Source: a virus. From it: a stretch of DNA of 21,954 nt. A model generated the notes under the pieces. That model was not told the origin of the DNA. It was given only the letters and a program-made list of their open reading frames with translations, and searched no databases. The stretch covers positions 1-21,954 of IMG/VR virus record IMGVR_UViG_3300044641_003538; one strand, 5' to 3'. Positions 5,298 through 21,954 of this stretch are shown here, one piece after another (the first letter of the stretch is position 1; every line of letters begins with the position of its first letter). The position numbers and the translations under genes are program-made.

Positions 5298-6034
5298 TGG
5301 TAGGCGGAGATGTCGGTGGAGAAGGTGCCGGACTGAGATGATCCGGATGCCAGAAGGGCTTTGGATGCAAAGATGCCTTGGTAATTGTTTGCCATGGAAT
5401 GCGTCACCGCATCCGGGAAGGTCTGAGCATTGAACTCTTTGGCCCAGGCATTCAGGGCAGCCGAAAGGCCAATGCGTTTGTAACCCTGCTTTCTTTCAGC
5501 CTTGTAGGCCAACCAGGTCTCGACAGCAGCAAGGCATTGGTCGGTCTGGAGATTCTCAGGCAGTGTTAAGCCGAACTTAACTCCCCAAAGAGGTTGCACG
5601 GTAATCTCGGGCACGACGGCAGTCGTCGACTCCTCTCCCTGTTCCCTTTCCCTGTTCCCTGTTCCAAGGCTATTTTTCTCGAATCCTCGCGAATCCTCGC
5701 GAACATCGTCGAATGATGGCAGCTTGGAGGCTGAAGGTTTGTCGATTTTCTGGTGATTCTGCCATTTTGGGATGTCGAGGTAGGCCTCGCCGTCGACCTG
5801 GTACAGTCGAATGCAGCCCTGCTTCTCAAGTTCAGAGATCCAGCCTGGGAGCTTCTTAAAAGCATCGTCGTCGTAAGGGTAGAGACGGCTCGCGAGGAGT
5901 CGCGAGGATGCGCGAGCCCTCCCGACATCATCACAGCAGGAGAACAGCCCGATGAAAAGAAGCCGTGCCTCTCTCGAAACCCTACCAAGGCTTTCGGACT
6001 CCCAGAACTCTGGTTTGATCGACCGGATTCTCAT
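5294..6034 (-). CDS. Phage replisome organiser / replication initiator
   Basis: This 246-residue protein begins MRIRSIKPEFWESE, a widespread phage replication-protein N-terminus followed by a winged-helix domain (about 1-95, with LSREARLLFIGL-type and RASSRLLASRLYPYDDD runs). A low-complexity charged linker (about 108-140) leads to a C-terminal helical domain whose HSMANNYQGIF resembles the DnaD/DnaT-like ends of replisome organisers. The role is origin recognition and loading of the helicase encoded next. ATG 6034 was chosen because it forms an ATGA overlap with the HNH gene's stop; a longer frame exists but adds a non-conserved tail. The gene contains short repeats in its linker and N-terminal region that may be the origin itself, as in lambda O. 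Confidence 0.85.
   Translation of the reverse strand: MRIRSIKPEFWESESLGRVSREARLLFIGLFSCCDDVGRARASSRLLASRLYPYDDDAFKKLPGWISELEKQGCIRLYQVDGEAYLDIPKWQNHQKIDKPSASKLPSFDDVREDSRGFEKNSLGTGNREREQGEESTTAVVPEITVQPLWGVKFGLTLPENLQTDQCLAAVETWLAYKAERKQGYKRIGLSAALNAWAKEFNAQTFPDAVTHSMANNYQGIFASKALLASGSSQSGTFSTDISAYQ
5636..5916. repeat. Iteron-like repeats inside the initiator gene; candidate replication origin
   Basis: The plus strand carries GAATCCTCGC twice in tandem (5681-5700). About 190 bases away the complementary orientation, CGCGAGGA plus two bases, occurs twice and then as a partial CGCGAG, with exact 10-base spacing (5891-5916). The 8-mer CGCGAGGA therefore occurs four times in two inverted clusters. 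Beside them, 5636-5666 holds three TGTTCCC-type direct repeats. All fall in the replisome-organiser gene, the first cluster and TGTTCCC copies within its low-complexity linker. That matches lambdoid origins in position, but binding is not shown. Confidence 0.55.
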
Positions 6035-6519
6035 TGGGTGATTTCCTTTTTGGCCTGGGCCAATGTAACCTGATTCCTCAGTCCCAGCAGCCACTCTTTA
6101 GTCATGATTCCTGTCTCTGCTGCATCTTTGATAAGATGGCTTATCTCATGAGGCGGCCATCCAGCCTCATGCCCAGCTCGCTCAATGAAAAAAAGGCACC
6201 CCTCATCTGCATCCATGCCTTGCTGCATCATGGAAATCTGCCGATCGATCTCAAAGCAGGCCGAAACTTCCCACAGGTGGAAGTAGGAAGGCCTTGGGCA
6301 TGAGTCGTCATTGCCTTCAACGTGACACTGCCGGCAAAGCGTCACCATTGATTGGTTTGGGTATTCCCAGGGCATCCTTCCTGAGATGTAGTAAAAGTGG
6401 TGAACGGTTAGCGTGTTGGTTTCGGACTCGCACTTGATGCACCGGAAACCGTCTCTCGACATGATTTCAAGGCGCTTCTTCTGCCACCGCGGATCTTGGA
6501 GTTTTTCGGAGTAGGTCAT
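6031..6519 (-). CDS. HNH endonuclease-like protein
   Basis: This 162-residue protein starts with the standard HNH opening LQDPRWQKKRLEIMSRDGFRC. Two zinc knuckles follow: C27/C30 and C62/C65. Between them LTVHH supplies the catalytic-pair histidines (40-41), and N55 and H66 complete a plausible HNH set. The C-terminal half (about 90-160) is helical and unrecognised. HNH proteins in phages act in packaging, recombination or homing; the position before the initiator suggests nicking or replication, but this is a guess. The start has no clear Shine-Dalgarno sequence. The stop overlaps the initiator's ATG as ATGA. Confidence 0.85.
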   Translation of the reverse strand: MTYSEKLQDPRWQKKRLEIMSRDGFRCIKCESETNTLTVHHFYYISGRMPWEYPNQSMVTLCRQCHVEGNDDSCPRPSYFHLWEVSACFEIDRQISMMQQGMDADEGCLFFIERAGHEAGWPPHEISHLIKDAAETGIMTKEWLLGLRNQVTLAQAKKEITQ

Positions 6520-9887: not shown

Positions 9888-10117
9888 AGCTTCTCCTTTC
9901 CATCGCCAGACTCCACTCGTTCACGCCCCAGAGCCTCACGCGCATCGTCGCGGACATAGTTGTTCACGGCGTAGCCCAAGTCTTCAGGATCTAGGAATCG
10001 GTTGATGAATGACTCCATTCGCTTGATCTTCTCATTGGCCGCATCCAACTCTGCTTGGAACTCAGCATCACAATGATCTTGCCAAGCCTGTTCGGCTGCA
10101 TGGTCGGCGTTGCTCAT
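9884..10117 (-). CDS. Helical hypothetical protein, 77 residues
   Basis: It reads MSNADHAAEQAWQDHCDAEF, then a helix AELDAANEKIKRMESFINRF and DPEDLGYAVNNYVRDDAREA. It is acidic and probably all-helical, with a coiled-coil-like centre. ATGA overlaps at both ends. No family recognised. Confidence 0.65.
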   Translation of the reverse strand: MSNADHAAEQAWQDHCDAEFQAELDAANEKIKRMESFINRFLDPEDLGYAVNNYVRDDAREALGRERVESGDGKEKL

Positions 10118-10374
10118 CGCTTGTTATTTTTGTATTTGTTCCATTGAAGGATTGCTTTGTATTCTTCATCGTCATTCTCAGCGTTCAGCATCGCATCCCC
10201 CGCCTCCTCCAGCCGCTTGATGCGGTCGTGAAGCCGCAGGTTTGCTTCATCCAGCAATTGCTGCTGCCGGATGATTGTATTGGACGCGGTGAGTTCGCGT
10301 TCCAACCTCCTGCACAGCAGCCCCAACTCGGCTACGTTGTGAGGTGTTGAGTCTGATATCGGTGTATCGCTCAT
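10114..10374 (-). CDS. Coiled-coil hypothetical protein, 86 residues
   Basis: It starts MSDTPISDSTPHNVAELGLL and continues into long helices (LCRRLERELTASNTIIRQQQ and LHDRIKRLEEAGDAML), then a basic end. This layout is common in small phage proteins of the type found in accessory gene strings. ATGA overlaps at both ends. Function unknown. Confidence 0.65.
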   Translation of the reverse strand: MSDTPISDSTPHNVAELGLLCRRLERELTASNTIIRQQQLLDEANLRLHDRIKRLEEAGDAMLNAENDDEEYKAILQWNKYKNNKR

Positions 10375-10562
10375 TTACCCTCCCTCGCTTTGAGCATCGC
10401 GTCGGCTATTTCGTAAGCCATGATCGCGCTCTGGTTTATGTTGTTGTACCATCCCACTTCGTTGATTGCCTTCGCCGCGAAGTAGTCGCGGAGACTAACC
10501 TGAAGCCCTACGTTCACGCTGCTGCCTGTTGATTGAATCTCTGTTGTTTGTTGTCCACTCAT
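10371..10562 (-). CDS. LRDYFAAKA-type small phage protein, C-terminal half of a split gene
   Basis: The conserved part is SLRDYFAAKAINEVGW, then SAIMAYEIADAMLKAREGK. I know this as the C-terminal part of a widespread small phage protein whose N-terminus carries INDGGPAF. Here that N-terminus lies about 500 bases upstream in another frame, on the far side of an HNH/zinc-ribbon gene. ATG 10562, with AAAAAGG upstream, gives 63 residues and overlaps the 3' end of that HNH gene by 68 bases. The first 20 residues are then a new leader translated from HNH coding sequence. The stop overlaps the next ATG as ATGA. The fragment may still be expressed and functional. Confidence 0.65.
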   Translation of the reverse strand: MSGQQTTEIQSTGSSVNVGLQVSLRDYFAAKAINEVGWYNNINQSAIMAYEIADAMLKAREGK

Positions 10563-11010
10563 AATGCCTTTTTGTGCTGCACTTTTTGCAGTAAGATTTA
10601 ATCCCAAGAGGTCTGCTTCTATCTTTAAAGAACTCATTCAGCTCCAAAGTTTGATTGCAGTCTCGACATACATGAAACTGTTTGTTGAGGCAGTAAAACG
10701 AGTCTCCGGTGAACGTTGCGTGCCTTGTGTTGCAACCTCTGCAAAGCAGCTCCATTGATCCATCTCGATTGTGCTGCAATGATGCGACCGTCGATTTTCC
10801 GTCTTTTGACAGCCAATTCATCTTTCGGCTGCACCCCCTGCAAACCATTTTTGACTTTTCCACCATTTCGGCCAAATCCATCCTGGTTGGGACAGTTTTT
10901 CCGCAAGTTTTCGCCTTCGCCCTCATCTGTCCAAATCGATAGTGAACGACGCAGAGCCACTGGTTTCCTTGCTTGATGTAAGCGCAGGTACCGCATATTG
11001 AACAAGTCAT
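10495..11010 (-). CDS. HNH / zinc-ribbon protein, probable free-standing homing endonuclease
   Basis: This 171-residue protein is rich in zinc-binding pairs. An N-terminal CSICGTC is followed by a central module with C57/C60, LQHNRDG (H80) and CRGCNTRH (C90/C93/H97), an HNH-like treble-clef layout. A C-terminal module has C115/C118 and C141/C144 (VCRDCNQTLELNEFF, SYCKKC) and a basic tail, common in phage homing-type nucleases. The gene is more AT-rich than its surroundings and breaks the otherwise continuous chain of 4-base overlaps. It sits exactly between the two conserved halves of a small phage gene. I infer a mobile insertion. Nuclease activity is likely but unproven. Confidence 0.7.
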   Translation of the reverse strand: MTCSICGTCAYIKQGNQWLCVVHYRFGQMRAKAKTCGKTVPTRMDLAEMVEKSKMVCRGCSRKMNWLSKDGKSTVASLQHNRDGSMELLCRGCNTRHATFTGDSFYCLNKQFHVCRDCNQTLELNEFFKDRSRPLGIKSYCKKCSTKRHYEWTTNNRDSINRQQRERRASG

Positions 11011-11086
11011 GGCTCAATATGACATCGGGGACTACCTTGTCAACAGCAAACGCCGGTCCTCCGTCGTTGATTGGTTGGTTGCTCAT
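10634..11086 (-). pseudogene. NDGGPAF-type N-terminal half of a split small phage gene
   Basis: ATG 11086 has GGAGG seven bases upstream and an ATGA overlap with the previous gene. It opens MSNQPINDGGPAFAVDKVVP, the classic N-terminus of the NDGGPAF...LRDYFAAKA small phage family. After about residue 25 the frame enters the HNH gene and translates it out of frame (Arg/Gln-rich, no conservation) until 10634. So only about 11011-11086 is ancestral. The matching C-terminal half lies at 10371-10562. Confidence 0.65.
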
Positions 11087-11280
11087 TTCGATTCCTCCAC
11101 CTTTACCATCGGAACGAAGTCCAATCGGTTGCTCTCGTCGATTGCGATTCCCCAATTGTTCCTGCGGCAGGACAGTTCGGTGGCGTTGTAAACTTCCGCC
11201 ACCTTCTCGTCCGGCAGGTAAATGGACAGCAGTCCTTTGAATGTTAGTCGTACCGTCTCTGATTTGTTTTGCTCGCTCAT
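11083..11280 (-). CDS. Hypothetical protein, 65 residues
   Basis: It reads MSEQNKSETVRLTFKGLLSI, then YLPDEKVAEVYNATELSCRR and a strand-rich end (WGIAIDESNRLDFVPMVKV). A strong AAGGAGG lies five bases before the ATG. Overlaps are ATGA on both sides. The mixed alpha/beta pattern suggests a folded small domain, but no family is recognised. Confidence 0.65.
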   Translation of the reverse strand: MSEQNKSETVRLTFKGLLSIYLPDEKVAEVYNATELSCRRNNWGIAIDESNRLDFVPMVKVEESK

Positions 11281-11435: not shown

Positions 11436-11623
11436 TTGAGTCCCTCCAGTTTTTGAATACGTTCCTGCATTTCACGGATCACGTCGCACAGGCCGATCAG
11501 TATCGTCCCGGTGCCTTCGACTCGGATTCCTGTTTTGCTGGTGATCTCTAAACCGCGGCGCTCGGCATCCAGTGCGATGGTTCGCCACGGGTCATTGATG
11601 AAGTTTGAGATCTTCACGCTCAT
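11432..11623 (-). CDS. Hypothetical protein with C-terminal helix, 63 residues
   Basis: ATG 11623 has GGAGG seven bases upstream and an ATGA overlap with the RuvC-like gene. It reads MSVKISNFINDPWRTIALDA, then RRGLEITSKTGIRVEGTGT and a terminal helix LCDVIREMQERIQKLEGL. A longer frame to 11812 only translates the RuvC gene out of frame. The stop overlaps the next start as GTGA. No family recognised. Confidence 0.65.
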   Translation of the reverse strand: MSVKISNFINDPWRTIALDAERRGLEITSKTGIRVEGTGTILIGLCDVIREMQERIQKLEGLK

Positions 11624-12075
11624 TTCAATCCCTCCGCAATCATTGCGTGCTCCAGGATCAGCACAGCGTCCGCGGTTTTCAGCGTGATCACCTGCCTGGG
11701 CTGCCGCTGCTGGGCGATGCCCTTTAGGTGGGCCTTCCATTTGGTGCCATGGGTCGCCTTGTTTCCGACCCCCAGTGTCTTCTGCCAGCGCTGTGGGGGA
11801 ACCTCGATGCACCTGGTCTTCGAGGCTGCAATCAGGCCGTGCAGGAAGCCGACGTTGTACCCGAAGTTGAACATGAAGCTGCCCGGGGCGCCCTTGCCGC
11901 CGACGTACCCGCCGACCTTCTCGATGTAGACCACGTCGCTGATCGCCAGCCTGTCGCTCACCAGGACACTGATGTCCTGGTCGGTCTCCGGCATGGAGTT
12001 CAGGATGATCCCGGATGGCCCGAGGTAGGCCAGGCCGCCGCTCATGCCTGGGTCGATGGCTAGGATGCGAGTCAC
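11620..12075 (-). CDS. RuvC-like Holliday junction resolvase
   Basis: This 151-residue RNase H-fold protein starts at GTG 12075 (GTGA overlap). The first strand ILAIDPGMSGGLAYL holds catalytic D8. VVYIEKV supplies E52. The last helix LKTADAVLILEHAM supplies D136, with an upstream basic region (RWQKTLGVGNKATHGTKWK) for DNA contact. It resolves branched DNA arising in replication and recombination and clears junctions before packaging. The length is typical of phage RuvC-like enzymes. It lies in the small-gene string between a ribbon-helix-helix protein and a small unknown. Confidence 0.85.
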   Translation of the reverse strand: MTRILAIDPGMSGGLAYLGPSGIILNSMPETDQDISVLVSDRLAISDVVYIEKVGGYVGGKGAPGSFMFNFGYNVGFLHGLIAASKTRCIEVPPQRWQKTLGVGNKATHGTKWKAHLKGIAQQRQPRQVITLKTADAVLILEHAMIAEGLK

Positions 12076-13526: not shown

Positions 13527-15995
13527 TTAGGTGAGCGCAACCGATTTCCAAGTTGTTCCGTTGTGAATGTGCAGCGTGTTGCTGTTGGTGTTGAAGAACA
13601 TCGGCACGTTGGCTCCCGTCACGTTGGTCGGAGTGCCTGTCGGATTTGACGATGAAGCAGGGATGTAAACGAACCCGTCGATCATCGAGCTGCCGCCAAT
13701 CGGCCCGATGAAGTCGCCGCCCACCTGATTGTAGCTGGCACCCTTGATCAGCTTGCCGGTGGCGCCATCGAACAGAACGAAGTTGCCGTCCGTAGCGCTG
13801 CCGGGCCCAACCACGTTGCCGGTTCCTGTGCCTGTGGCTGCGATGGTGATCGTGCCAGATCCGTTTGTGATCGTGATGTTGGTGCCCGCGGTCAGCTTGG
13901 CCCGGGCCAGCGTGCTCCCGAGGCTCTTGCCGATGAGCAGGTCGCCGTCGCTGAAGACGTTGCTCTGCCCGGTTCCGCCGTTGATCACACCGAGCGTCCC
14001 GCTGACTGCAGAGCCGCCCAGGGCAATCTGGGGCAGGTCGATGGCTTGGATGGCAGACATCTGCACCACGGTACCATTGCCCCGGAGGTACTGCCCGTTG
14101 GTGGTTGCGCCTGCCAGGAACGAGATGGCCGAGGATGCCGAGGTGCTGCTGGTGCCGCCATTGGCCACGCTCAGCACACCGTCCAGCGTGATCGTGCCGG
14201 AGGCCGTGATCGGGCTGCCGGACGTGGTCAGGCCGGTGCTGCCGCCGGACACACTGACCGAGGACACGCTCGCGCCCGACGTCATGCTGTCCAGCTTGGC
14301 CGCGTAGGTGCTGGTCATGTAGCCGTTCTGCGTGCTGCTCGCCGCGTTCTGGCTGATGACCGGCGTGGTGCTGCCCGTGGCCACGCTGATGTTCGCACCG
14401 CCCGTGGCCGACACGTTGGTCACCGTTCCGACATTGGCCGTGTAGCCCGCCGGGTTGGTGTCGGGATAGGCTCCGAGGTTGGTGAGTGCACCGCCGGCCG
14501 TGGTCGCCCCGGTTCCGCCCTTGTTGACGGGCAGCGTGCTGGTAATCGTGCCTGCAGAACCCAGCACGTCGATGTTCCACGTGCCGGTCGCCCCGGTGCC
14601 GGTGGGCGACGGGATGTCGGTGCCGATGGCCAGGCCTAGGTTGGTCCTGGCACCACTCGCAGTGGTGGCTCCGGTGCCACCGTTGTCCAGATCCAGCGTG
14701 CCTCCCAGGGTCAGCGTGCCGCTCGAGGTAATCGGGCCGCCCGAGAAGCTCATCCCCGTTGTCCCGCCGTCGGCATTGACGCTGGTCACACTGCCGGATG
14801 CCACCGCGGCATTCAGCGTAGAGCCGGCCATGGACAGGTTGGTGCCGAGCGTGATCTCGCCCAGGGCAGTGCCCGAGGCATTCGAGCCGATCAGCTTGGC
14901 CACCGCGGAGGCCGCCTGCATCTTGGCGTAGGTCACCGCGTTGTTGGCAATGGTCGCCGCGAAGGACCCTGTGCCAGTGCCTGTCACATCCCCGGTGAGC
15001 GTGATGGTCTGGTCGCCGGTGTTGCTCCCGGAAAGGTTGGAGCCTGTGACATTGCCTGACGCAGCCACCGAGGAAGGCGTGATAGCGCCCAGGGCCAGAC
15101 TGATGGCCGGGGTGGTGGTCGGGTTGGTGACCGTACCGCTGACTCCATTGGCCGTGGTGACCGAGACCGATGTGACCGTGCCGCCGTTGGACGTGTAGTT
15201 GGCCGGGTTGGACGCAGGGTAGGCCCCGAGGCTCGTCAGGGCCCCAGCCTCGGTGGTTGCACCAGTTCCGCCCGCAGACACTGCCAGAACGCCTCCTAGC
15301 GTGATTGTGCCACTACTGGTAATGGGCCCGCCCGAGGTGGTCAGGCCTGTCGTGCCGCCCGAGACGTTGACGCTTGTCACACCGCCGCCCGTAGGTCCCG
15401 GAGGACCGGCAGGCCCGGTGGGGCCGGCAGGACCCTGGGGTCCCTGCAGACCGCCGGCACCGAGTGGTTTGGTGGCTCCGGTATCGAGCCGGGTGATCTC
15501 CAGCGTGGTGTAGATCTCGGGCTGCCCGATATTGGAGGCAATGCCAAGGCCGTCTGCATGGCCGCCGCGCTCGCAGTAGTACTCGAGCCGGTAGACGTTG
15601 TCCTTGTGCGGCGTGATGCGCAGGTTCAGGGACACTTCCATGTCCACGCCGTTGTTGATGTAGAGCGATGGGCCGTACCCGATGACCACCGAGTTGGTCA
15701 CATCGTAGATCCGCAGCCGGGTCCCACGGGTGTGATGGAACGGTGCCAGCACCTTCACCTGGTAATCGCCGGCAGCCACCTTCCACTCATTGGACGCAAG
15801 GTCGATGATCAGGCCATTCGGATCGCTGCTGATGGTGTTGAGCGTCCGGGCTGTCCACACAGCAGTCACCGCGGTTCCGCCTGCGACGTTGTTGTCCTTC
15901 ACGTCCTGCAGCACCGCGATCTTCAGGGTCAGGCTGTCGACGTCCTTCCTCAGCTTGTTGATGAGGATCGTGCTGGTCTGGCTATCGTAGCTCAT
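13527..15995 (-). CDS. Tail fibre / receptor-binding protein with C1q-like domain, collagen stretch and repeats
   Basis: This 822-residue protein has a short coiled-coil start (about 8-30, INKLRKDVDSLTLKIAVLQD). Residues about 40-170 resemble the C1q/TNF-like jelly-roll domain of phage fibres: AVWTARTLNTISSDPNG, AAGDYQVKVLAP, and GIASNIGQPEIYTTLEI. Next come a collagen-like Gly-X-Y run (about 182-204, GPQGPAGPTGPAGPPGPTG) and long Gly/Thr/Ser-rich repeats. These include three copies of SGG(T/S)TG...(S/T)SGTxTLxGxL and four GGTGATT-type units, typical of beta-helical fibre shafts. Residues about 790-822 (FFNTNSNTLHIHNGTTWKSV) form the usual C-terminal fibre tip. It starts with an ATGA overlap after the LPP. 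The jelly roll is N-terminal to the collagen, the less common order. Confidence 0.85.
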   Translation of the reverse strand: MSYDSQTSTILINKLRKDVDSLTLKIAVLQDVKDNNVAGGTAVTAVWTARTLNTISSDPNGLIIDLASNEWKVAAGDYQVKVLAPFHHTRGTRLRIYDVTNSVVIGYGPSLYINNGVDMEVSLNLRITPHKDNVYRLEYYCERGGHADGLGIASNIGQPEIYTTLEITRLDTGATKPLGAGGLQGPQGPAGPTGPAGPPGPTGGGVTSVNVSGGTTGLTTSGGPITSSGTITLGGVLAVSAGGTGATTEAGALTSLGAYPASNPANYTSNGGTVTSVSVTTANGVSGTVTNPTTTPAISLALGAITPSSVAASGNVTGSNLSGSNTGDQTITLTGDVTGTGTGSFAATIANNAVTYAKMQAASAVAKLIGSNASGTALGEITLGTNLSMAGSTLNAAVASGSVTSVNADGGTTGMSFSGGPITSSGTLTLGGTLDLDNGGTGATTASGARTNLGLAIGTDIPSPTGTGATGTWNIDVLGSAGTITSTLPVNKGGTGATTAGGALTNLGAYPDTNPAGYTANVGTVTNVSATGGANISVATGSTTPVISQNAASSTQNGYMTSTYAAKLDSMTSGASVSSVSVSGGSTGLTTSGSPITASGTITLDGVLSVANGGTSSTSASSAISFLAGATTNGQYLRGNGTVVQMSAIQAIDLPQIALGGSAVSGTLGVINGGTGQSNVFSDGDLLIGKSLGSTLARAKLTAGTNITITNGSGTITIAATGTGTGNVVGPGSATDGNFVLFDGATGKLIKGASYNQVGGDFIGPIGGSSMIDGFVYIPASSSNPTGTPTNVTGANVPMFFNTNSNTLHIHNGTTWKSVALT

Positions 15996-18900
15996 TGCTT
16001 GGCTTTACGTCGGAGGATTCTCTGGGCCTCGTCAAGACTGCTGGCGATGCCTATCAGGCTGCCTGCGGGGCCGTAGAGGCGGAAGGAGCCCTTGGTCTTG
16101 CCCGGGATGGCCCGGAAGCCGCCCTGAAAGCTGTAGGCGCCGGGCATGGCTGAGTCGGGGGATGGCATCATATCCGCCGGCATATTGCGGATGGCAATTG
16201 CCGCAGCCACGCGCCTAGGAGGCACCGCCCACAGGTTCTCCGGGTCGAACCGTTCAATCTCGGTCGCCTTCTTCAGGCGGACAGGATCTTCCATGCCGTC
16301 GTACAGAGCACCGTAGAGCCGGTAGCCCTTTTCAAACAGGTCCATGGCCTCGCGGTGGTCCTTGACGCTACGCCCCGAGGCCATGTCGCCGGCGGGCATA
16401 TACCGGAAGTCCTGGGGATTGCCGTACACCGGGTTCTTCACAAACACCGTGTTGCCTACGCTGAAAGACTCGGAGCCACCAGTGACGGGTTGATCGGTGC
16501 GCTTGTCGTAGAAGTAGGAGTGCTTTTTTGGGTCCATTCCAACCGGGGTCCACGTTTCAATATCCGATGGGATCGACCTGTCTTTGATTAGCCTTCCTTC
16601 AACCGTGGCAATCGGATGCTTTGCAGACCTTCCTTCCTTGATCGCAACCGCACCCAGTTTGGATTCCTCGCTTCCTTCTTTTACGAAGAATCTTACCGGG
16701 CCAGAAAGGCGAACATTGGTGTCGTAGCCAATCCTGTCGCCCACGTTTCCGGGGGTAGCAGGTTCGTGAATCGTTTGAACATATGTGCCCCTGTTCAGGA
16801 ATGCAGGGATGTCGATGCGGACGCCAACAGGAGATCCTTCTGGAAGCGATTCGTGTTCACGCCAGAACGGTTGCTTTGATGAAGAAAGGGCAGCTTTGGC
16901 TTTTTCCTCGGTCGGCGGGTTGGCGAAGTCGATGTTGCTGCCCACCTCGCGCTGGATGGTGGCGGGCATATACCGCTGGGCGCCTACTTCGCCCTGGGGC
17001 GTGGTAGCCTCATCCGCAGCACGTCCCTCGGTCCAAGTCCATTCAGGCATGAGCCCGGTTTTCTGATCGGCGAATACGGTGTCCTCTGTCTTAGCGGTGC
17101 GGTTGCGCTCGCCGTAGGGACCGTAGTTCAGCCAACTGTTTTGACCTCGAGTCTCAGTGGTGATGGCGCCACGAGCAGGCCCCGTGAAGAGTCGAATGTG
17201 CGCCTGCCAGGCGTTCTCCTCGCCCTGAGCCCGGAAACCGGAACCCTCAATGCCGTGACCGAAAGCGTCATGCACGGCGCGGAATAGGTCGTTGGCATAA
17301 ACGGTTCTCAATTCACCGTTGGGTCCACCGAACGGCCAACGCAAACCAGTCTCGGCAAGCATTGGGTTGGAATCTGGATTGAAGTCCTCCTTGGTTCCAA
17401 ACCCAGAGTCTGTTGGGAAAACTCCCATCGACTTGTTTGCGCGGAGGTCGCGCATGGCGTTGAACGGAGATGATGCGTACTGCTGCCCCGCATCCGAATT
17501 AATATCAATAAACCAGAACTTGTATCCCGCTGAATCAAGTGCTCGATACTGATCCGTGGTTTGACGGATCAGGTCCTGGTAGGCCTCGCGCACCGCAGGA
17601 TCTTGCGGTGCATGAGGCATCTCATCGTAAGCCTGAGCAATCCTGCGGGCACGGTCCTCGTCTACCTCAACGTATTCTGATTGGCGACGGAGATTGATTC
17701 CGTTGTCCTTGGCGTACTGCTCTGCGACGCCAACCAAGCTCTGGTCTGGGCCACTAGCGCCTTTGACCTGTGGAGCGCCTGCAAGCGGCGCAAGGTTCCC
17801 AGACGAATACCGTCCTCCTCCTCGGTCTCCACGTCTTCCTGGTTGTTCTGCGGTTTGTTCATAAAGTTTTTCTCCTCCGGCAGGCATGAAATACGCTAGA
17901 CGAGAAGGTGAGTCAATTTGCCTTCTCTTCCATTTCTCACCTGCCTCCGGCGTGGTTCCATACCCGGCTGCCTTGTTGGCTTTTTGCGCTTCACCCAACT
18001 GGCGGTCGTTCAGGGCCGGTAGTTTTTCAAGACCAGGGAACATCACCTCATGCGGTTCAACACGTCCCCGAATGCGATCCCACAGGGTCCATTGAGCCGG
18101 GAAGACAGCAACACCAAGTTCGTTCGCCCGGCGCTCGTTAATCTCAAGTGCTGAACGGTAGGAATCCGACATGACCTGGAAGTCCTTGGGAGTTTCCACC
18201 CAATCGACCGATTTGATGTATTCCGGGGCATTCGGGTTGATGCCGCCCTTCTTCGCAAGAAGCGTTGCCTTGCGGCTTCCCATGGCAGCAAACACGGCCT
18301 CGTTGACGAACTTTTGAACACGGTCTGCACCGTAGATCTGTGCTTGCCCCAGGACGTCATCAATGGTTTTCGCCCGGGTTGCCGTTGGGTCTGGTAGCGA
18401 ATCCAAGGTAGATGCCATTTCAGCCTTGATGCTCTTGATGCGTTTATCGTTTTTGGCCTTTAGCTTCTTGAGTGTTTGCTCGTCGTTTTTGTTGAGCTCG
18501 ACAATCCGCTTTCCTTTTTCCTCGGCATTTTTCAGGCGGCGATTGAATGCCGACGTGGCTTCCTTGGACTTCTTGAGCATTGAGTTGAAACGGTCGACAA
18601 CAATGCCTTCAAACCGTTTGCGCAACTCCGGGTTACCCAGCAACTCCTGGCCAAAGATGCGGGCCATGTGGCGGTCCATGGCCGAGATGGATGCCTTGAG
18701 CGGATCTTGCCACACCGATCCAAAGGAGCCCGTCTTGGTGCCAAACCCTTTGACTTGAGTTGTCAGCTTGTCGACGAAGTCTGCCCAGGATTCGTTGGCC
18801 TTCTTGACGAAGAAGTCTGGGTTCTTGGTGAACAACCGAGCGGCATTTACGATGTTCGAGATGTCTGCGGTGATCGCAATACCAAGGCCGCCCTTGCCTG

Positions 18901-21900
18901 CAGAGATGAACCCCAGTTCCTTTTTGAGTCGTTGGTTCAGCTCCTTCAGGTTTTCTTTAGTCGGGTTCTCTGGGTATAGATTGGCAAACTTGCGCACATC
19001 TTCCATCGAACCAAACCGGAGTCTGGACTGCCCCATTTCATTCGGCAGCAGCGGTGCGTTTGGTGAGAGCATACCAAACACAATCGAGTTGAAACTCGAG
19101 ACCTTCTCCCCAGGTGTCGGGGCCATGGTTGACGCCAGCTTTGCCGTCAGCTTGGCGTGCGTCGTCTCAGGAAGGTTTGCTACGTCGACTGGGTTGGCTT
19201 TAAGCCAGAGGAGGTCGTAGTACGTGAACTTGCCCTCAAGGCCGCCGGGTATTCTCGCAGGATTTCCAGCCACGTCCGAGGGGATGTTTGCGATTTCTGA
19301 AAGAGGGCCAAGGTTTGGGACGCCGAATGCTTTGCCGTATTCCTCAAACTCCGTTGGAGTCCAGTCTTTCGGTTCTTTGCCTTTGAAGAATATGTTGCCG
19401 CCTTCATCTCTTGTAACTCCCTGAGCCTCAAAGGATGCACGTCGTGGCAAAGATTCTGCAACCTGTTTTCTAGCTGCGTCCTCTTCAGCCGGCATGAACC
19501 TCACATCCCCCGCTTGTCGAACCGCCCCGAGTTCTTGCCGGCCTTCTTCTCGGCCTTGCGTGCGACCGACAGCGCTATCGCCACGGCCTGCTTCTGCGGT
19601 TTGCCGGACTTCATCTCGCGCCGGATATTGCTGCTGACGGACTTCTGGCTGTAGCCTTGCTTGAGTGGCATCTGCTTTCCTTTCTGCTTGGGTTTGGGTG
19701 TCGTAGATCCCGATCAGCTTACCGTCGGGACCGTAGAGTCGGTGCTTGGCGCCGCTGATGATGCGGTAGCCTTCCTCGGAGTTGATGACCGATTTGTCGC
19801 CGAGCTTCTCGGCAGGCATCCAGCGCTGCTTTGAGAGCTGGTAGGCCTCCTCCGAAAAGCGTGCGCGGAAACCGGATGGAGCTATTGAACCAATACGGTC
19901 CAGGCGGAAGTCGCGGACAAACTTTTCACTCTGGTTGATGAAGTCCCCGAGGTACTTGGCCTTCTCCAAACCAAAGATCTCGGCAGACCGGCGGGCGCCT
20001 TCCTTCTGGTCGAGGTTGGTGAAGTACTTCGCCAGGTCGCCCATGAACCCGTCGACGTTGTCCCACAGGCCCTTGCCCACACTGCCGTTGGAGGCTGTGT
20101 CCTTCAGGATGGCATCCCGGACATAGCTGATGTCGATAGCCTTGATCAGCGGATGATCCGCTTTCGAGAAGTAGAACGCATACGGCAGCACGTCACGGTC
20201 AGTGAGGCGGATGCCGCTGCTGTACCTGTTGACCTTTTTACCAGTCAGCCGGTTGATGATCTTCTTGAGCGCTGCGCTGTAGGTGATGTTGAGGCTGTTG
20301 CCAGCGTCCATTGCAGCGTTCGCGGCCCTGATCTTGTCCTTCATCCGGCTGCTGACCGCCTGAGACTGCTCAATGGCAGACAACTGCTCCGGGCTCAATC
20401 GACCCTGAGCAACACCATCGACCATGCGGGCTGTGCCCGGTGTGTTCTCAATGATGGATCGAAGGCTTTCGCGGTCCTTGTCCTCTCGGGCCACAACCTC
20501 TTCGCTGGACATTGACCGGATCGTGCCATCGGGCATCTGTTCAGCTAAACCAAGCTCGACCAGTTGCTTAGCCGCCAGCGGGTTGGACACATCCTCGGGC
20601 TTGAGGATTAGCTTGGTCTTTTCACCTTGGATTTTGATCTTCTCATCCAGCTTGCGCCGGGCACGCAACAGGTCGCGCAGCATGGCGTTCACCTGGGGCG
20701 AGGCCTGCTTCAGATCCGGGAACAGGACAGAATCGGTCGGCTTTACACCAAACGTGCGCTCAATGGTCGCCGCGGCATCTGCCAAGGCCCGGCTGGCGTT
20801 CTGGGTCAGGGCTAGGTCGAGAAGTTGCCTGGTAAGGCCCGTGAAGCCCTTCAGCAGTGCGTCAGGCTTCTGACCGGCCAAGAGCCCAGCAAAGTGCTCT
20901 GCTGCGAGCTCTGAGGCCACGTAGTCAGCCTTTTTGTTGACGGTGTCGTACTGAGCGAGCTCGTCTGCCATCGAGGCATTACCAGCACCCAGCTTGTCGC
21001 GGTACTCGTTGAACTTGGCTTCGATCTCTGCGTCATTGAAAGCGCCCTCGGCCAGCTTGCGGATGGTGTCGCCTTCCTGAATCCATCGACCCACCAAAGC
21101 GTTCTTGATCTCGGTAGCGCCGGCCTCGAGCTGGGTGCTCTTCTCAAGAGCGTGGAAGAGCTCGTGACCGAGCGTGTAGAGCGGGCCGTCGCCGGTGCCC
21201 TTGCCGATGATGTCGGCGTTGATAACCACCGCAGGCCGGCCACCTTTGTTCTCCACCTGCACGCCCCGAGCGTTGATTTTGTAGCGTTTGGCGAAGTCTT
21301 CGCTGGAAAGATACTCCACCTCGACGTCGCCAAACTTGCCGCGGACAAGGCCCTGCAAGTCCATCAGGCTGGATGCAGCATCCACGCCATGCCTATCACG
21401 CAACTGTTGAAAGAGCGCCTTGGTCGTCGGGTCCTGCTGGGCATCAATAAACCGTCCCAGGTCGCCGGCACGGGCCTCCTTGGCAGCCTTGCCGGTGAGA
21501 CGCTGGTACATCCGACCACCGAGAGCACCTGTAGCACCCTGAACACCGCCAGAACCAAAGCCTGCAGCAGCACCTTCTTGACCACCTGACAAATATCCGA
21601 GGCCTGTACCAATTGCCGCACCTTCAATTCCTCCGGCAAGCCCCCGCAGTGAGGCATCCAAGGCAGCGTCCCCACCGTACTGCCCGACCACACCGAGCAT
21701 ACGCTGGCGCAGGTTGGCACCCGGGGCAGCACCGATGGCTTCCAATGGCCCGATGCGCGATGGCTGGGTCATCAGGTTCTCGCCGGCACGGGTCAGAGCC
21801 TCGCCCAGCTCCCGAGCAGTACGAATGCCTGCAGGGATGGCAGCAAAGGCAGCAGCCTCCGGTGCAACACCAAGAGCGCCTGCGATACCGGCGGTGGCCG

Positions 21901-21954
21901 CGGTGTTGCGGAGCGCTTCAGGCGCCATTCCGATAGCTTCCGCTGTCATGCGCT
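15992..21954 (-). CDS. Large polyvalent protein (LPP) with zincin protease motif, open at the right edge
   Basis: This is at least 1985 residues; the frame stays open to the window end, so the N-terminus is probably missing. Numbering is from ATG 21949. In order: a Gly/Ala-rich zipper-like region (about 70-145); a zincin with [11 protein letters not shown] (H262, E263, H266); a helical domain (about 530-705); the motif RWMPA (711) and a [14 protein letters not shown] module; RFMPA (819) and a domain with GFGTKTGSF...[11 protein letters not shown] (K1072, D1092); YFMPA (1355) and a domain with [11 protein letters not shown] (H1560, H1565); RYMPA (1661) and a domain with [21 protein letters not shown] (1851), an LPP-type module and a second [12 protein letters not shown] copy. 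LPPs are phage proteins thought to be injected with DNA and to act early in the host. Activities other than the peptidase motif are unproven. Confidence 0.8.
19501..19671 (-). CDS. Small conserved phage protein overprinted in another frame of the LPP gene
   Basis: ATG 19671 has AGGA six bases upstream and opens a 56-residue frame: [20 protein letters not shown], then [20 protein letters not shown] and a Lys/Gly/Arg-rich tail. I recognise [21 protein letters not shown] as a very common small phage protein (close to DUF6496-type sequences). It lies wholly inside the LPP gene in a different frame. There the LPP translation (about 760-816) is a featureless Arg/Gln/Ala/Glu-rich linker between the RLYGPDG module and RFMPA. 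The conserved frame is therefore the older one. The stop falls just before the RFMPA codons. Function of the family is unknown; the basic tail suggests nucleic-acid binding. Confidence 0.75.

Follow-up and report, generated by a model that had tools for sequence, protein, structure and literature searches.

A putative homing-type HNH gene that splits a small phage gene within its variable linker

The best-studied homing genes of phages lie in introns or beside conserved, often essential genes. Intron-less HNH genes that split phage genes have also been described: MobA is inserted in gene 60 of phage T4, and MobE splits nrdA in Aeromonas phage Aeh1, where the NrdA halves reassemble into a working enzyme (PMC2988022). 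The methylase gene (gp65) of mycobacteriophage ShiLan (JN020143) carries an insertion with an out-of-frame HNH ORF, which starts 18 bp in and stops in the last four bases, while the host frame is open throughout, the host protein continues, and there are no signs of an intron or intein (PMC11855218). The DHHRN family, represented by F-CphI and carrying the endonuclease VII (Endo VII) motif, has conserved D, H, H, R, and N residues between two CX2C pairs (D40, H43, and R54 among them; PMC6083498). The gene described here encodes about 70 aa, is found across many phages, and has been invaded by two unrelated HNH families; the arrangement of frames may reveal how such elements limit harm to the host gene.

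The DNA analyzed (the window) is the whole 21,954 bp of IMG/VR record IMGVR_UViG_3300044641_003538. It contains a minus-strand run of small genes, in which neighbors are linked via ATGA overlaps. A 151-aa ORF at 11620–12075 (minus strand) starts MTRILAIDPGMSGGLAY and is RuvC-like by eye, with no Pfam match at E ≤ 10^-2, and a 1985-aa ORF at 15992–21949 (minus strand), which reaches the window end, encodes a very long phage protein. Within the run of small genes, the original prediction placed two halves of one common small protein on either side of a 516-base HNH-like gene, in differing frames:

11048–11086, minus strand: N-half of the split small gene, starting at the ATG at 11086 (MSNQPINDGGPAF) and homologous to intact alleles up to 11046–11048
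10495–11010, minus strand: HNH-A ORF (P0001), the nuclease-like inserted gene, 516 nt, 171 aa
10371–10493, minus strand: C-half of the split small gene, LRDYFAAKA...ADAMLKAREGK, ending at 10371 and matching PHROG_2201 (9.1e-9)

N-half, HNH-A ORF, and C-half each occupy their own frame, and the linker plus insert (11047–10494) measures 554 nt, which is not divisible by 3. As predicted, the outer ends of both halves keep their ATGA overlaps, with the upstream neighbor gene (11083–11280) at 11083–11086 and with the downstream one (10114–10374) at 10371–10374, whereas the HNH ORF is not joined by such a 4-base overlap. The inserted gene was also expected to be richer in AT, which it somewhat is: its GC content is 46%, whereas the four small genes adjoining it have 51–53% and the window as a whole 58%.

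The two-halves reading is borne out by 92 fetched related loci (a few of them overlapping pieces of the same contig), in which both halves lie in one frame, at most 130 nt apart. An IMG/VR search with the joined halves gave 153 confirmed relatives, the best 80 of which were kept; the joined halves are aligned by tblastn in dozens of contigs. The intact small gene encodes about 70 aa and reads MS.QPINDGGPAF, a variable linker, and LRDYFAAKA...ADAMLKAR. Nearly all inspected relatives are continuous genes of about 68–75 aa in which a hypervariable linker separates NDGGPAF from (GM)[TS]LRDYFAAKA, the exceptions being L052–L054 (related loci carry L numbers) and a rearranged allele in L046. Uninterrupted versions, as the original prediction anticipated, are therefore available in many relatives, and the two halves are neither independent genes lacking an intact counterpart nor members of unrelated families. 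These comparisons confirmed that the small gene is broken in two by the HNH-A insertion, a real interruption and above chance.

The NDGGPAF and LRDYFAAKA modules (11048–11086 and 10460–10493 in the window), which are also present in L003–L082, are often 90–100% identical at the DNA level between phages. The genes neighboring them are 72–85% identical between the same phages. The modules may serve as recombination joints. The L046 allele (L046:3001–3285) has two different tandem C-half starts, MTLRQYAAIRL... followed by RDYFAAAAINEVG, as if two alleles had recombined.

Aligned with intact relatives, the window loses nucleotide similarity at 11046–11048 and regains it at 10493/10490, and the interval is large compared with the linker of most intact alleles (roughly 50–75 nt). 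These homology breaks bracket the ends of the insertion, the left edge being placed approximately, at or slightly past a probable remnant of the host linker:

11035–11047, minus strand: probable host linker remnant, AVDKV (PVDNV in L002), matching linker alleles PVDNVV/PVDNVI in L105, L106, and L109
10494–10525, minus strand: right end of the insert; these 32 nt persist as a scar in L116, joined there in frame to the upstream gene

Because the remnant attached to the N-half, AVDKVV (PVDNVV in L002), matches the linker family of these three loci, the insert appears to lie inside the linker. When viral and genome collections were scanned by pattern for an exact empty site with the same linker, only the related linkers of L105, L106, and L109 came up, so that linker replacement via recombination, instead of simple insertion, may apply.

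IMG/VR holds two full copies of HNH-A, one in the window and one in contig 3300021952_000084 (L002). The L002 insert is 98% identical to that of the window, with differences at 9 of the 516 ORF positions, and its flanks comprise an unrelated upstream gene, ThyX (PF02511, 1.2e-44), and a C-half of a different allele. Read in the HNH frame, seven of the nine differences are third-position changes, and the nine comprise five synonymous changes and four replacements; in the N and C frames, the corresponding counts are zero and nine each. The HNH frame therefore looks coding, although the number of changes is small (n = 9). In L116 (2599–3082), an upstream gene, MNIEQ...GKT, continues in frame into the last nine HNH-A codons (QQRERRASG and stop), followed by an open C-half. 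In other phages, the same upstream gene has GKT-WLPCGVMEE.K as its end and precedes an intact NDGGPAF gene, and L116 would therefore descend from an insert-bearing ancestor; it is most simply read as a derivative in which the N-half and the greater part of HNH-A have been lost. The distribution of the insert is thus independent of its flanks, as judged from two full copies and one scar.

The small gene is interrupted by a second element, HNH-B, in five contigs (L052–L054, L123, and L124). It is represented by the copy in L053:

2502–2996 of L053: HNH-B gene, HNH_3, 164 aa

The HNH-B ORF has a Pfam HNH_3 domain (PF13392, 1.9e-9) and is unrelated to HNH-A. Its insertion point, at NDGG/PAFP, is slightly upstream of that of HNH-A, and its last codons extend into host linker sequence; an intact allele of the linker family at this site, GGPAFPGLDYIDQHGKKNPEGMTLRDYF, is found in L119. 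The five inserts are almost identical, and their upstream sequences and C-halves differ. Among the fetched loci, a set chosen by similarity to the halves, there were no other insertions of comparable size in the small gene. Since two unrelated HNH families hit the same gene, it looks like a recurrent target, or landing site, of such elements. An assembly chimera can be rejected as having a negligible probability: all copies come from metagenomic contigs and none from an isolate, but independent assemblies contain the same block and junctions (the window and L002, with the right end also in L116), and HNH-B recurs in its five contigs.

Taken together, these data are probably best explained by a free-standing, intron-less, and intein-less homing-type HNH gene that inserted in the variable linker and split the small phage gene; homing, cleavage, and C-half expression are what we infer from sequence comparison. 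The free-standing homing-type insertion proposed originally is supported by the intact alleles, the near-identical block between different flanks, the L116 scar, and the unrelated HNH-B in the same gene. HNH-A would be translated from its own ATG within the message of the host gene. When phages co-infect, it would nick or cut alleles that lack the insert, in or close to the DNA-conserved NDGGPAF and LRDYFAAKA modules, and the insert would be transferred as the HNH-bearing copy serves as template for repair. The same modules are proposed to double as recombination ends, which would be why the insert is found with different neighbors and C-halves. Points against this explanation are the rarity of HNH-A, with two full copies in IMG/VR, the absence of a Pfam HNH match to HNH-A, and a core that lacks residues of Endo VII-type homing enzymes.

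Much of the same evidence bears on module shuffling without homing, in which the nuclease gene is another linker cassette swapped by phage recombination and its product is perhaps inactive or otherwise employed. The linker of intact alleles is hypervariable between conserved ends, the insert takes the place of part of the linker, C-halves have been exchanged between copies of HNH-A and HNH-B, and L116 is rearranged further, all of which would fit shuffling. We nevertheless consider it quite unlikely, as ordinary shuffling does not predict that the sole inserts of this size found there should be HNH-type genes of two unrelated kinds, and the substitution pattern of HNH-A is coding-like.

The protein encoded by HNH-A has an N-terminal C-x2-C...C-x2-H motif, followed by a central core (C57-x2-C60...LQH80...LLC90-x2-C93-N94-x2-H97) and a C-terminal ribbon:

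10720–10842, minus strand: putative catalytic core of HNH-A, residues 57–97, CRGC...LQHNRDGSMELLCRGCNTRH, identified by motif reading against Endo VII proteins, with no Pfam match
10579–10668, minus strand: zinc ribbon of HNH-A, residues 115–144, C-x2-C ... C-x2-C, with matches to PHROG endonuclease VII families

By motif, HNH-A looks like a zinc-finger, HNH/Endo VII-like protein. PHROG endonuclease VII/HNH families match its C-terminal ribbon only (best 2.8e-8), and searches with Pfam and NCBIfam returned no HNH model. No relatives were detected in INPHARED at 1e-5 (weak Endo VII/HNH matches appeared only at E ≤ 10) or, by peptide patterns, in GTDB genomes; 84 related virus records yielded the L002 copy and one weak ribbon match, and a PDB sequence search only an irrelevant lectin. 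The single-sequence AlphaFold model was poor and uninformative (pLDDT 41.6). We infer nuclease activity from the motifs, given the absence of a Pfam HNH match and the poor structure model. A second HNH-like ORF in the window (6031–6519, minus strand; 162 aa) lies between genes and has VHH and C-x2-C motifs; its HNH part weakly matches the NCBIfam IscB model (E 2.4e-4, far under the cut-off).

The original prediction had also allowed for an intron-like unit, while noting that little space remained for an intron core. Group I introns of phages often carry HNH ORFs, both outer halves are open, and the insert lies within one gene, so that a self-splicing intron with an HNH ORF, removed from the RNA to leave the small protein intact, had to be considered. 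Rfam, however, gives no intron family for the region even at E ≤ 10, and none at the gathering threshold in the window, L002, L053, or L116. The limited space was borne out as well: the ORF takes up 516 of at most about 540 nt and leaves no room for a core outside it, and the HNH-B ORF continues into the host linker. The intron is thus very unlikely, and this part of the prediction is not upheld.

The arrangement of reading frames around the inserted gene has two further features:

10634–11086, minus strand: N-half reading frame, open over 124 HNH-A codons and ending with the TGA at 10634–10636 (P about 0.0002)
10560–10562, minus strand: candidate restart ATG in the C-half frame, conserved in L002, with a weak Shine–Dalgarno (SD) sequence

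The open run of the N-frame inside HNH-A spans 124 codons in the window and 127 in L002. A run of this kind arises in about 0.02% of synonymous-codon permutations of HNH-A, with two alternative frames examined, and a codon-order shuffle agrees. The test was calibrated on 57 ORFs of similar GC, two of which are HNH-A itself, and is slightly liberal, since one other ORF scored ≤0.005. The amino acids of the N-frame within HNH-A are not conserved between the window and L002. In the window, the N-frame stop overlaps an ATG of the C-half frame at 10637, forming an ATGA; L002 has no such overlap and has TAA as its N-frame stop, and the ATGA relay at 10634–10637 was therefore rejected as a fixed feature. 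The restart codons available in HNH-A are weak, and an SD sequence like that of the ATG at 10562 is expected by chance (P 0.21). The N-frame of HNH-B soon meets stops, and a restart, AAAAGGAGAATAT-ATG, lies in the host C-frame (AAGGAG and ATG), from which a 104-aa protein consisting of linker and C-half would be made; an ATG with an SD as good as this one occurs in 0.6% of synonymous permutations (P 0.006).

These features suggest that the HNH elements may limit damage to the host gene through their frame arrangement. A stronger reading is dual coding as in ShiLan, in which the host frame is deliberately open and read-through, frameshift, or termination–reinitiation allows expression of the halves, so that an altered host protein is still made. 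The improbably long open N-frame, a layout as in ShiLan (PMC11855218), and the HNH-B restart with its AAGGAG speak for it, but in HNH-A the N-frame ends in a stop (TGA, or TAA in L002) with the C-half in another frame, its amino acids are not conserved, the N-frame of HNH-B stops early, and the HNH-A restart is weak and not significant; on balance, it seems rather unlikely. It is unlikely, too, that the locus represents a distinct gene-splitting design, convergent across HNH families, in which a nested HNH gene, a stop-free N-frame, and an insert-borne start re-expressing the C-half leave a usable small protein. If this damage-limiting design were true, a phage carrying the element would still make such a protein. 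As the contigs offer natural intact, interrupted, and scarred alleles, it can be tested directly how targets are recognized and what becomes of the split gene.

Among known systems, the ShiLan insertion is the closest in architecture, and the proposed free-standing homing-type insertion shares several features with it. HNH-A is intron-less and intein-less, and its out-of-frame ORF nearly fills the insert, starting no more than about 40 nt from the left edge (ATG) and stopping at the right edge (TAG); a central HNH-like core between zinc motifs, a patchy distribution, and a long open frame entering from the host gene are likewise common to both. Unlike in ShiLan, the host frame is broken, as the N-frame stops after 124 codons and the C-half is in another frame, and the host is a gene of about 70 aa instead of a methylase. 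The two HNH proteins have no sequence similarity; HNH-B and the ShiLan HNH are related in their HNH cores (E 5e-6), but stops interrupt the host frame of HNH-B. By eye, the HNH-A core resembles the DHxH...VRGLLC-x2-CN core of phage Endo VII proteins and has the C-x2-C ... H ... C-x2-C-N layout of F-CphI and the DHHRN family, and its zinc ribbon is of the kind found in phage Endo VII, although it follows the core in HNH-A and precedes it in the Endo VII proteins examined. H80 and N94 are present, whereas Q79 takes the D40 position and equivalents of H43 and R54 are missing by eye; with D, the second H, and R absent, HNH-A was rejected as a DHHRN enzyme. With MobE and MobA, the parallel lies in the splitting itself: a free-standing HNH-type gene splits a gene that is intact in relatives, both halves stay open, and the insert has its own nuclease ORF, by motif and PHROG, and no intron or intein. 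It differs from these in that MobE and MobA target essential enzymes, and in that HNH-A is of another type and overlaps a possible C-half start. Given the shared layout, the broken host frame, and the unrelated sequence, we class the element as a variant of the gene-splitting, homing-type HNH insertion and do not assign it to the ShiLan elements, introns, or DHHRN enzymes. Its arrangement is intermediate between insertions of the MobE type, which split genes, and the out-of-frame, ‘hidden’ HNH of ShiLan.
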